The notes under the pieces: model-generated | The model's input: only the letters and a program-made list of their open reading frames with translations | Told to the model about the DNA's origin: nothing | The model's database searches: none | Translations under genes and position numbers: made by a program | Assembly (NCBI GenBank): GCA_963402885.1 | Contig: OY727103.1 | Location: 16,146,085-16,210,084, forward strand | Length of the DNA stretch: 64,000 nucleotides | Source of the DNA: Antedon bifida | Lineage: Eukaryota; Echinodermata; Crinoidea; Comatulida; Antedonidae | Direction of reading: 5' to 3' | Shown here: positions 12,763 to 25,644 of the stretch, one piece after another | Layout: each line of letters opens with the position of its first letter | Position numbering within the stretch: the first letter of the stretch is position 1

Positions 12763-15700
12763 ATGTTTTCAAGAAATGTTAGTGCAATAAAAGGCGTGCG
12801 TAAGACAATAGAGCATGTAGGTTGTAGAAATGCGTTAAAAAATGGCGAAATATTAATATGTTCGTCTAATCAACGCCAACATGTGGGTAGGCCTCGGCAG
12901 TTTCATTGGACGCCGGTAAACTCAGGGGCGTTCGCGAAGAATCTCTTCATGGGCCGGTTGATAAAGGTAGGTACACAGGAGCCTAGGCCTAATAATAGTA
13001 AAATCAATACTGATACATACAGTAGGCCTAGGCCCTACTACTTTATTTTTATATTGAAGACTTTTTCATTTAGTATTTGAAATGTTGCAATATTCTGAAT
13101 GTTTTAAGGCCGCATAGGCCTATTAGTATATGTATTATAAAAAAAAAATACACATTTATTATTCGCCGTGGTTAGGATTCCGGCACCGGAACTCAACTGC
13201 CCAGCGTTAGGGAATCTGACACACTATTGCGCAATGCCCAGAGCGAAGTAATCGGCGACTCTATACTCTATCATCTACAGACTAACAGCAAAGATACTAC
13301 ACTATCTTTGCTAACAGCGATGGATCAATAATAGCTGCGCCACGGCGAACTAGCCTAACCCATTTCATATATAAACTTCATATAATTATGAATTATAATT
13401 ACATGACTAGTTTTATGATTTTCAAGTACAAAATAAAAGATTTCATATAACGCATTATTATACTCTGTAATAACAATGCACTCGTATACAAGTTGATTTG
13501 TTGACGGCAGCCGCCGCCCGGATATGATGTGAAAAAAATCCCTATAATAACAACGTCCGACTCTCGGGTGGTGTGGTGCGCGGTCTGTGGCACTATAGAG
13601 TAGTGAAAGGTACAATTACTTCGCTCTGGGCATGCGCAATAGCGTGTCGGTGGGCAGTTGAATTCCGGTGCTGGAATCCTAACCAAGGCGTTTATTATTT
13701 GGGGATATGGTTGCATTGCCATTAGGGTTGGGGAATCCTTTTTCGTCTGTTAAAAAAAATGATATGTCTTTGATATGATATTTGTAAGTGATTTTTTTTT
13801 TTTTTTTTCATTTTCATTCTTTTTCATTCATGTGATTTTTGTCATAAATTTAAAAACAAGGGAGTTGGCTTTAATCAAGTATTTAGTATGTATTTTATGT
13901 AGGCATAGGTCATTTTAAATGTTTTTTTAATATTATATTATTTTGTATTTTTATATTTATTAAGAAAGACAATTTTTAGTTGGAATTGGTTGACTTTCTT
14001 TCCAAAAATGTATTTTATTCATTCATTTTAAGCTGCCTCAATTGATATGCAATGTTAGAAGCATGCCAATGTATTCTCAAATGACATGCAAATTAAATTA
14101 CAAAGTACACTTTAGTCTGGTACTTGATAATTAGAAGCAAAATCAAATGTAAACATAATTTTAGCAAATAACAAGATTTTAGGATTCTAGGAACACCACA
14201 TTATAAATGGTGCAAACAAGTATTAATTAAGTGCTGAAGTAATAAAAAAATAAATGTTTGGTTATTTTAAACTATGTTATGATAGTAATTAAACACAGAA
14301 ATTTCTATGTATATTTTATATGCAAATGACAACAAATGAAAATAATTTACTGATGAATGAATGAAAATACAGTATACCTACTATAGTGATTGTTTGACTT
14401 TGACAATGACTTTGAGAAGTCACATGCCCATGACCAGGCTGTGACTTTTAAGGAAAGTGTGACTCACATGGCCACTGTTTACATTCAGGGCAAAGTCTAG
14501 TAGTAATATTGATGGAATGTACTCATTTTCAGTGTTTTATTATTATTAACTTCATTCTACTCCAAAAAATAAAGATGAATAAAATTAAACTTTGAACTGG
14601 TCATTTTGTAGTTTCAATAAAGTCATATTCTAAAATATTCCAAAATATTTTGCATACAAATATATAAAAGATAGACAACTTCCGGTTGAATTTCTTCCTT
14701 TAAATTATAGTTTTTATCGTACTGTAAATATTTTTTAAATACAAATTTTGGTCAAAGTGAATAACTTTTTTTTTTTACTCTTTTAACTGCTGCAGATGCA
14801 TGGCAATTAAAAGCATTATATGTTTATTATTTTAGGAAGATGTTTTCCCCTATCCAGAAGTGTCCGTGGAAAAATATCAAGAAATTACTGAACTGTGTGC
14901 ACCAATTGAAAAGTTTTTCAAAGAAGAAGGTAGGTGCATGTCAGTTAAAAATACCCACAGTGTTATTGTTATTGTTCACAATATGTCCAGTGTCATTTAA
15001 GCTCTGTCTACACTATCAAACTAGTTTGACAAGAAATAATGTGATGTGCCCAACTATGGTAGTGATATGACATCGTGTTCATATATGGACACATAACATT
15101 TTTTTTGTCACATAAAGTTTCATAGTGTAGACAGAGCTTTAGATTATCATCAACATTGTTGCTGTTAGAAACTTTTTTTTAGAAAGTTTTTTTAATGTGT
15201 TTTTTTTTTATGTGTTTTAAATGTGTTTTTTCCTCTAGTGCCTTCAAAAGAAATAGATTTGGCAGCAAAAATTGATGACAAAACAATGCAAAAAGTGAAA
15301 GATATGGGTTTGTTTGGACAACAGATTCCTCTTGAATATGGTAAGTAGGCCTAATATTACTATTACGTCAACGATACATGATTTAAAAGATGGTGCATTT
15401 TTGCATTAGACTGTATACTAAAAAACAATAAAACATACATCCACCCACGTATCTTGCGCTCTGTCTACGCTATCACTAACTAGTTTGACAAAAAAAAGTG
15501 TGATGTGCCAAAATATATATCATTGTCTCCATATATGGGCACATCACATTTGTTGTCACATTAAGTTTGATAGTGTAGACTAAACATAAATACACCCTTT
15601 TTTATGCAAATAAACACAACTGTACATATGCATTGTAATTTGTAATGTATGTTATAAAATACCTTTTCTCATATACTAATATTAAGTATAACTTGCTCCT

Positions 15701-23063: not shown

Positions 23064-24742
23064 TTAGAAGAATGTGTTTGGTCTCTTGGTAGTGAAAACT
23101 GGTTTGTATGTACGCATGGTACGGTGAGGAAGTGGGAACTTGATCTTGGAGTTCTGAAAGAAATCAAATACAAATTTCAATACAAAAAAATCATTTTCGA
23201 CGAAATGTAGTACTTTCACGTTGAAAGGAAATTAATAGTGTAACTTACATGGAACTGCTTAACATGAGATCTGCGGCATTTGCTGGCAGCGATCTGTTCA
23301 ACTCTCATGATTTGAATTGAGTGAGATCTCGCACGATGACGAGCTCCCATATCACGATCTATGGATTAATAAGATTTCTCATAAATTTTAAATATCTTTA
23401 TGAGCAGTTGATTTTTTTGGCGCTTGCCTGTAAACCATAGCTGTAGTGTAGGTTCATGTCCACTCTAAGCCACTTCTTTTTCACTCCTAGCAAACCCCTG
23501 AACAGATTAGCTAGGGGTGGGGTTTTCCAATGATATTGTACCAGTTTTATTAGTTCACTTCCACAAACTATAGTCAAGTTAGGAAAGGCGACAAAACCGA
23601 TTGCATTTGTTATATGCACATTTTAAAACTTGAACTACTGAAGATGCAAGTACGTCCAAGGGAGTTTATGTGCAGTTTGATAAATACTTTTCTACATAAA
23701 TATATAGATGATAAAACCAATTGTGACATCATTACTTACAGCATTGTGTGACAGCACTTGCAGTGGTCAAGTCACGGTACTCGCGGTACATGTTGTGGGT
23801 TCCACTACGCGAGTCGTAACGCAACCAGATTCCAAAATTCTTGATGGTTCCTGGTCGTTTCTCTGAAATCTGTAAATGAACAAAGTGATTAGTGCTACTC
23901 ATCAACAGCAAGCAAATCCCAAGTAGTTTTCCTTACTTTGTTTGTCTCAGTTTTTTTAGTTCACTTTCCAAGCTACATTTAAGCTAGGAAAGGCGACAAA
24001 ACTGATCATTTATTTGTGCACAATTTTAAACTCAAACTACTGTGATGCTAGGAAGTTCAAGGGAGTTTTGTGCATGTTGTTCTCTTTTTTCAGTGCTTGT
24101 TACACCATATAGTATCCAGTCATCATAATTACCTTTCTGCAACTGCAGACTTCGCCCTGCGACTTCTTTAACTTCTTCAATTTGTTGGTAAAGTACCAAA
24201 AACGAGACTTTGCAATGATAGCATTGGGAGCGAATATCCTCATCTTGTAGAGGGCAGGAGTTGGCTCCTTTTCGGTGGGCAATTTGCGCCCCACCACATG
24301 GAATTCCCGCAACTGAAACAGGGAAAAGAAAGTTCATTTGCTTTTGAATTGGGCTACATTTAGGCTTATCTATTATTTAATTACGTATATAGGCCTAGCC
24401 TAGCCTTAGTACTCCTCGCTTAATACCCAAATCAGGTGCGAAAGTTATCAATCCAATCTAGGCCTATCCACTTACATAGGCCTAGTAATATTGGGATAGG
24501 CCTAGACTAGGCTAGTCTCCTCCATTATTTGCATTCGATCGCACCTTCCATCCAATCAATGTGGATGAACAAATTGCGATATTAAAAAATGGCTTTCACA
24601 ATTTCAAAACCAGAATATTTTTAACTATTTTTCAAGAATAGACATTAGAGGAAATACAGATATGAGTGTTGGCAATCAAGATTTATATTTTTTGATAAAA
24701 TTAAACATTTATTCCCCGACTTACTTGTCCTTTACACGACAT
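23064..24742 (-). CDS. RPL18A: 60S ribosomal protein L18a (eL20)
   Basis: Five minus-strand coding exons (24725-24742, 24133-24312, 23740-23869, 23249-23358, 23064-23153) give 175 aa (human 176). Residues align along the whole family: [33 protein letters not shown], then [68 protein letters not shown], and the C-terminus TTKRPNTFF. It is a structural protein of the large ribosomal subunit. The first exon codes only six residues (MSCKGQ), which fixes the start. A pyrimidine tract just upstream fits a TOP mRNA. Introns 2 and 3 each carry an H/ACA snoRNA. It is divergent from XPOT. Confidence 0.98.
23534..23675 (-). ncRNA. Intronic H/ACA box snoRNA, copy 2 (RPL18A intron 3)
   Basis: On the minus strand a 5' hairpin closes with TGCACAT/ATGTGCA. 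An H box candidate ATAACA follows. The 3' hairpin has GGTTTT...AAAACT at its base, with GTCGCC and GTGAACTA lining the internal pocket. An ACA box (ACAATA) sits 3 nt from the proposed 3' end. It aligns throughout with the copy in intron 2, and the pocket words (GTCGCCTTTCC, GTGAACTAA, CAGTAGTT, ACTCCCTTG) are the best conserved. Both the fold and the sequence are seen directly; the target uridine was not determined. Confidence 0.8.
23940..24075 (-). ncRNA. Intronic H/ACA box snoRNA, copy 1 (RPL18A intron 2)
   Basis: On the minus strand the 5' hairpin base is TGCACAA/TTGTGCA, then H box candidate AAATAA. The 3' hairpin has base TCAGTTTT/AAAACTGA and an apical stem CTTTCCTAGCT/AGCTTGGAAAG. The ACA box ACAAAC ends 3 nt before the RNA's proposed 3' end. 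The human RPL18A gene hosts an H/ACA snoRNA (SNORA68, from memory), so host and RNA class agree; whether this is its orthologue needs alignment. The 3' end lies about 70 nt from the downstream exon, a normal spacing for intronic snoRNAs. Confidence 0.85.
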
Positions 24743-24766: not shown

Positions 24767-25644
24767 CCGGATTAATTGAGGGCGCTGTTAAACTTATTTC
24801 AGAAAGTGTCATCACTTATAGAGGGGGTGCTTCATGGAAAGGAAAACACGTTTCGTGTACAGAAAAAAAAGTGTTGTATTTACACCCAAAAGATAATGGT
24901 AAAATCATCAAAATTAGCACAGTAAACTCTTTAAATTGCAGGTAGAAAACTAACTAATTGTCAGGATAATTTTGAAGCAAATTAGATCATTATTAAAATA
25001 GATTATGAACGTTAAAATCAGAAGCATACAGCTAGGCCTAGCTAGTAGTAGGCTAGACATGCATGATGATGGATGGGATGGGTGGTGGTAGGCGCATCAT
25101 TGACTGTTCGTCCTTTACGGCCGGTTAGCATTCAATAGGCCTAGAATATTAGATCGCTAAATATCTATGGAAAATTGAATTTGTAAGCTTTTATATCTAT
25201 ATTCTAGGAAAATATTAATACTAATAGTGGTTCACGTGACTCGGTCCCAGTGAACATAATAATAATTAATATAATACTAATATTATAGGCCTAGGGCCTA
25301 TTATTATATTTTTTTAATTAAAAATATTTTTTAGGCTAGCTAACTAGAGGGCCTCTAGTTTAGCTAGAGTACTACTAGCATAATCAAATCTTTAATAAGC
25401 CTAGGTAGAAGTAGGCTTATGATTTATTTTAGATGTAGGCCTAGCCTATGCCCTACCTGGAGTCTAGAGGTACAACTACAAGAAGTTATCAAAATGTCAC
25501 ACAAAAGTAGTTGCTAGGCCTAGGCTTACTTTTTTCAATATACTGTTATTGTTGTACATGAATACCTTGACAAATTAATAATAGACTTACTCTAATACAG
25601 TACTGTGTTTATTTATATTTACTTAGAATTCATAAAAAGATGAA
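24767..25644. promoter_or_regulatory. Divergent promoter region RPL18A / XPOT
   Basis: About 0.9 kb separates the two start codons, which point away from each other. The XPOT coding start is preceded by an acceptor (TATTTACTTAG at 25615-25625), so XPOT has a non-coding first exon in this stretch, its position not fixed. TAGGCCTA words are frequent (25031, 25137, 25286, 25437, 25517). No TATA box is evident. Confidence 0.5.

Follow-up and report, generated by a model that had tools for sequence, protein, structure and literature searches.

Introns 2 and 3 of the RPL18A gene in the analysed stretch of DNA (64,000 nucleotides, hereafter the window) each contain a minus-strand segment (137-143 nt) that is very probably an intron-encoded box H/ACA snoRNA, the two being paralogues of each other and homologues of SNORA68 (U68) with a common target in 28S rRNA. 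This assignment is carried by the anatomy of the segments, the match to the family, the identity of the 3' pockets, the fit of these pockets to the target site and the host gene, all of which are read from the sequence itself. The segments are designated copy A (intron 2) and copy B (intron 3); an earlier interpretation made from the letters alone (the sequence-only reading) had already placed them in these introns and on this strand with correct coordinates.

The complete coding sequence of RPL18A (eL20) is located on the minus strand at window positions 24742-23064 and is divided into five exons. The spliced exons encode 175 amino acids with no frame break, and the product matches eL20/L18a chains over its full length (best E value 3.9e-89), vertebrate eL20 being close to it; a tblastn search with RPL18A against phages gave no match. 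The exons and the two host introns are arranged as follows.

24725-24742, minus strand: RPL18A exon 1 (coding part)
24133-24312, minus strand: RPL18A exon 2
24132-23870, minus strand: RPL18A intron 2, which hosts copy A
23740-23869, minus strand: RPL18A exon 3, which separates the two host introns
23739-23359, minus strand: RPL18A intron 3, which hosts copy B
23249-23358, minus strand: RPL18A exon 4
23064-23153, minus strand: RPL18A exon 5 (coding part and stop codon)

Many short TAGGCCTA-like copies are present in intron 1 (window 24382-24516) and many also upstream of the gene (window 25120-25500).

H/ACA RNAs carry the H box, a sequence of the form ANANNA, in the hinge between their two hairpins, and their pockets are located 14-16 nt before the H or the ACA box. 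On the minus strand, both copies are composed of a hairpin, a hinge with an H box, a second hairpin and an ACA followed by 3 nt, and the folds and hinge sequences thus bear out the order of elements that the sequence-only reading had proposed. The individual elements are listed below, the z values referring to the folding of the given windows relative to shuffled sequences.

23940-24076, minus strand: copy A, SNORA68-like H/ACA snoRNA in RPL18A intron 2 (RNA core 24074-23940)
24017-24074, minus strand: copy A, 5' hairpin with the lower stem TGCACAA/TTGTGCA (by folding; window 24013-24074, z -2.14)
24010-24015, minus strand: copy A, H box AAATAA, which fits ANANNA (by sequence)
23947-24005, minus strand: copy A, 3' hairpin including the guide pocket (by folding; window 23941-24006, z -4.25)
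23993-23997, minus strand: copy A, 5' guide half of the 3' pocket, GTCGC, which pairs with 28S GCGAC
23959-23963, minus strand: copy A, 3' guide half of the 3' pocket, TGAAC, which pairs with 28S GTTCA
23943-23945, minus strand: copy A, ACA box, 3 nt before the proposed 3' end (by sequence)
23534-23676, minus strand: copy B, paralogous SNORA68-like H/ACA snoRNA in RPL18A intron 3 (RNA core 23674-23534)
23615-23674, minus strand: copy B, 5' hairpin with the lower stem TGCACAT/ATGTGCA (by folding; window 23611-23674, z -3.85)
23608-23613, minus strand: copy B, H box ATAACA, which fits ANANNA (by sequence)
23541-23600, minus strand: copy B, 3' hairpin including the guide pocket (by folding; window 23535-23601, z -1.86, 10 of 200 shuffles as good)
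23588-23592, minus strand: copy B, 5' guide half of the 3' pocket, GTCGC, same letters as in copy A
23553-23557, minus strand: copy B, 3' guide half of the 3' pocket, TGAAC, same letters as in copy A
23537-23539, minus strand: copy B, ACA box, 3 nt before the proposed 3' end (by sequence)

The spacing of 3 nt after the ACA is no independent measurement, because the proposed 3' ends are themselves defined by the ACA. By counting, the distance from the 5' pocket to the H box is 15 nt in both copies and that from the 3' pocket to the ACA is 18 nt in both, compared with 16 nt in the Rfam consensus of SNORA68. The minus-strand fold of copy A has an energy of -32.8 kcal/mol (z -3.29), which none of 200 shuffles equalled, and that of copy B an energy of -31.7 kcal/mol (z -2.29, 5 of 200 shuffles as good). 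For copy B the plus strand folds no better than its shuffles (z +0.32, 124 of 200 as good), but the plus strand of copy A also beats them (z -2.38, 2 of 200 as good), so that folding energy gives a clear strand preference for copy B only. Directly downstream of copy B, still within intron 3, the minus strand of window 23486-23522 reads CCCCACCCCTAGC...GGGGTTTGCTAGG, a potential hairpin by sequence.

A comparison with SNORA68, which the sequence-only reading had advised, showed that both copies match the covariance model of this family (RF00263) from end to end. In a scan of 701 bases, each copy aligned in the sense orientation with model positions 1-133, copy A with 41.1 bits (E 3.2e-06) and copy B with 29.4 bits (E 0.002). 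The gathering score of RF00263, i.e. its curation threshold, is 43 bits and was reached by neither, and the copies are therefore named SNORA68 homologues and not formal members of the Rfam family; in line with this, Rfam searched at gathering thresholds gave no match in the 64-kb window and none in L007 or L008. When the whole window was scanned (E ≤ 1), copy A was the first of four matches (E 2.9e-04) and copy B the third (E 0.18). An assembly-wide search (315.6 Mb, 27 contigs, E ≤ 10), in which scoring covered 42 of 17236 first-look candidates, listed copy A as its sole match (E 3.3e-4) and thus did not include copy B among the matches listed. Among 14 control genomes, three had an RF00263 match at E ≤ 10, none of which exceeded the cut-off. 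Taken alone copy B is weak, given its E value in the window and its absence from the genome list, and its identity rests more on its likeness to copy A and on its place in the host gene.

This likeness is pronounced. The copies agree at 106 of 137 aligned positions, and in a BLAST search of the genome with copy A, only copies A and B were found, copy B being 81% identical. The 3' pockets are the same in both, with GUCGC and UGAAC flanking the upper stem on its 5' and 3' sides, respectively, and the 5' pockets are nearly so (AAACUCCC, plus UUUAAAA or UUUUAAAA), which agrees with the near-identity of the pockets that had been noticed from the letters and gives sequence support to the claim of two paralogues with a common guide pocket. 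Despite 12 substituted stem positions, 31 of 33 stem pairs remain standard in copy B; in a simple home-made null model without mutation bias, and with one alignment gap shifted by hand, 12 random substitutions left 24.2 standard pairs on average, and only 1 of 20000 trials reached the observed number. The changes comprise two pairs in which both bases were replaced (A-U to U-A in the basal stem and G-C to A-U in the upper 3' stem), six one-sided changes with pairing kept, and two broken pairs. The compensating change that the sequence-only reading had seen in the basal stems is thus real, but it amounts to one base pair and involves the gap moved by hand.

These data also bear on two other explanations of the segments. 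One of them is that a single working snoRNA is present, probably copy A with its better family match, and that the other copy is a decaying duplicate. The lower RF00263 score of copy B, its two stem pairs broken relative to copy A and the weak folding of its 3' hairpin would fit such a decay; set against this, copy B has retained both boxes, an identical 3' pocket and an almost identical 5' pocket, it has kept nearly all pairs in spite of its stem differences, and its 5' hairpin performs better against shuffles than that of copy A. We therefore consider it unlikely that only one copy works. The other explanation attributes the likeness to chance folding or to a piece of transposon common to the two introns; it draws on the fact that chance can produce H/ACA-like folds and on the Rfam scores below the gathering score. 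Against it stand a genome-wide BLAST result of two copies only, flanks in which, judged by eye, the similarity fades beyond the limits of both RNAs, a family match over the whole length, a host gene shared with human and a pocket that fits the published site of the family; this explanation is disfavoured and appears very improbable. For the two paralogous SNORA68 homologues, the points against a textbook fit are the scores below the gathering threshold, the 18-nt distance between 3' pocket and ACA, and the two broken pairs in copy B.

A third copy was not found in the window with a model built from copies A and B, which gave three other matches at E ≤ 10, the best of them with an E value of 0.1 at 14747-14822. 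The proposal of the sequence-only reading that the duplication was local is supported only insofar as both copies are located in RPL18A and a third was not found.

For the prediction of target sites, rRNA contigs were retrieved by pattern, which yielded six contigs, binned with bacterial genomes, five of which contain eukaryotic LSU rRNA; eukaryotic 28S patterns had no match in viral contigs. The sixth contig (L003) was closest to bacterial LSU and was excluded from the target scans. Nine eukaryotic rRNA pieces, drawn from L001, L002, L004, L005, and L006, were scanned, and the 3' pocket fitted best to GUUCA[U]AGCGAC of LSU rRNA, with five pairs before and six after UN; this site ranked first in the five LSU pieces that contain it, and the next different site was weaker by 5.2 kcal/mol. 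The presence of this site in all LSU pieces is given by construction, because the retrieval pattern contains it, but this does not apply to its first rank in the two complete LSU sequences. In 3 of the 5 LSU pieces the target uridine is located 77 nt before the uridine that follows GGAUUG of the A-loop; in the other two the exact motif used for this measurement was not found. We take U4500 to be the A-loop uridine. By the published positions, the SNORA68 target U4423 belongs to H89 and the SNORA21 targets U4431 and U4500 belong to H89 and H91, and the distance from U4423 to U4500 is likewise 77 nt (PMC12288042). For human, SNORA68 is listed with the host gene RPL18A and the 28S target U4393 (PMC3766210), which agrees with the statement of the sequence-only reading that human RPL18A hosts an H/ACA snoRNA. 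U4393 corresponds to U4423 in the newer numbering and belongs to H89 in the peptidyl-transferase centre. Together with the published positions, the agreement in distance indicates that the 3' pocket is directed to the uridine listed for SNORA68.

Taken by itself the pairing score proves little, since the 3'-pocket score was equalled somewhere by 4 of 300 shuffled pockets and exceeded by the 5' pocket. What lends weight to the target assignment is that the site ranked first for the 3' pocket is the published site of the very family which the covariance model names independently, and that this family has the same host gene in human.

In the 28S rRNA of this species, the predicted target is the uridine of GUUCAUAGCGAC. 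A full 28S sequence was not found in the genome, contig C24 stopping in the first part of 28S, but a 28S fragment from this genome (L012) contains the site intact, and in this fragment, too, the site ranks first for the 3' pocket. In another fragment (L010), which starts after the target uridine, the distance of 77 nt was obtained by position. Truncated 28S pieces are present on three contigs (L010, 1501-2038; L011, 1501-2012; L012, 1480-1634); L010 and L011 share the 3' part of 28S and differ in their start points, and these pieces may be dispersed rDNA fragments.

For the 5' pocket, 25 registers were tried on the rRNA pieces, and among the sites listed (the best 6 per register or the best 12), there was no convincing target that recurred in different rRNAs and for both copies as well as the Rfam consensus pocket. 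The rRNA scan suggested by the sequence-only reading thus delivered a 28S site for the 3' pocket and none that convinces for the 5' pocket. The top 5'-pocket score (-20.53, vs -19.41 for the 3' pocket) was obtained at a site present only in L004, a protist-type LSU, and the second-best site is in the spacer after 18S. It is conceivable, but in our view doubtful, that a second modification, in LSU rRNA or in another RNA, is guided by the 5' pocket and that the members of the pair are double guides. This would be consistent with the near-identity of the 5' pocket in the two copies, its partial likeness to the Rfam consensus (AAACUCCC here for AAACCCAA in the consensus) and its distance from the H box. 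A possible lead is the stretch GGGAGUUUG, which occurs in both complete LSU sequences retrieved and with which, in L002, the 5' half of the pocket pairs over 8 (copy A) or 9 (copy B) bases; on the opposite side of this site, only 3 pairs are formed in L002 and, counted by eye, 2 in L004, and as a target the stretch is unproven. Against a second modification also stand the restriction of the top-scoring site to L004 and the lack of any overlap between the top sites of the two copies and the sites listed for the Rfam consensus pocket.

On the basis of established H/ACA biology, we infer that both RNAs are expressed, processed and bound by protein, and that both direct modification. After splicing, they would be cut out of introns 2 and 3 of RPL18A, and each would assemble with the four H/ACA proteins (dyskerin, NOP10, NHP2, and GAR1), whereupon the 3' pocket shared by both copies would direct dyskerin to pseudouridylation at GUUCA[U]AGCGAC in H89 of 28S rRNA. 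Most likely the pair originated from a copying event inside the host gene, and both copies would then have been kept under selection. The guide mechanism itself is textbook knowledge.

With SNORA68/U68 the pair shares the match over the whole length, the H/ACA anatomy, the 3' pocket GUCGC and UGAA(C), the uridine in 28S H89 and the host RPL18A; it differs in the occurrence of two copies in consecutive introns and in the sub-threshold scores, in addition to the longer 3' spacing and the partly changed 5' pocket described above. In chicken, an H/ACA RNA of 136 nt designated GGoACA1 is located in RPL18A intron 2, and its table row lists it as an orphan without target or human counterpart (PMC2653536). 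By this row it resembles copy A in class, host gene and intron. The same source describes almost all chicken snoRNA paralogues as products of intragenic duplication, many of them into adjacent introns and with guide regions and structure kept, about 90% of the chicken H/ACA snoRNAs being single (PMC2653536). In the fly, 27 ribosomal-protein genes are stated to host snoRNAs (PMC2246290). The cases of adjacent-intron duplicates in the cited source are from vertebrates, whereas the present pair is from an echinoderm; as intragenic duplicates are known from vertebrates, it represents another instance of a known phenomenon with an ordinary mechanism. Among open-licence papers, searched chiefly by title and the start of the abstract, no publication on this snoRNA pair was found, which is a weak absence.

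The common host gene in echinoderm and human suggests that SNORA68 has resided in RPL18A since their common ancestor, although it may also have arrived in this gene independently in the two lineages. A more detailed scenario, to which we assign an even chance, is that from this ancestral SNORA68 a second copy became fixed in the next intron in the echinoderm lineage and that both were kept, giving either two guides for one site or a new target for the 5' pocket. The results extend the SNORA68 family to an echinoderm with the same host gene and bear on how long a snoRNA remains with its host, and the pair offers a natural experiment on why two guides for a single site in the peptidyl-transferase centre are retained. 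They also suggest that the Rfam threshold for SNORA68 misses invertebrate homologues.

Two further observations concern other parts of the window and the genome. Window positions 14999-15139 form an inverted repeat with 24-nt arms that are 96% complementary and 93 nt apart; a weak match to MIR807 (30.8 bits, gathering score 113) falls in the same place, and the repeat resembles the termini of a small transposable element. The mitochondrial contig C27 (15,844 bases) carries COX1 on the minus strand, and its codons, together with an RPL18A close to vertebrate eL20, make an echinoderm likely. In a stretch of 447 codons translated with table 9, which applies to the mitochondria of echinoderms and flatworms, all four AAA codons stand at asparagine of the best-matching chain (7o37_a); at the four AGA/AGG codons this chain has A, G, A, and T and never arginine, and the six TGA codons are read as tryptophan.
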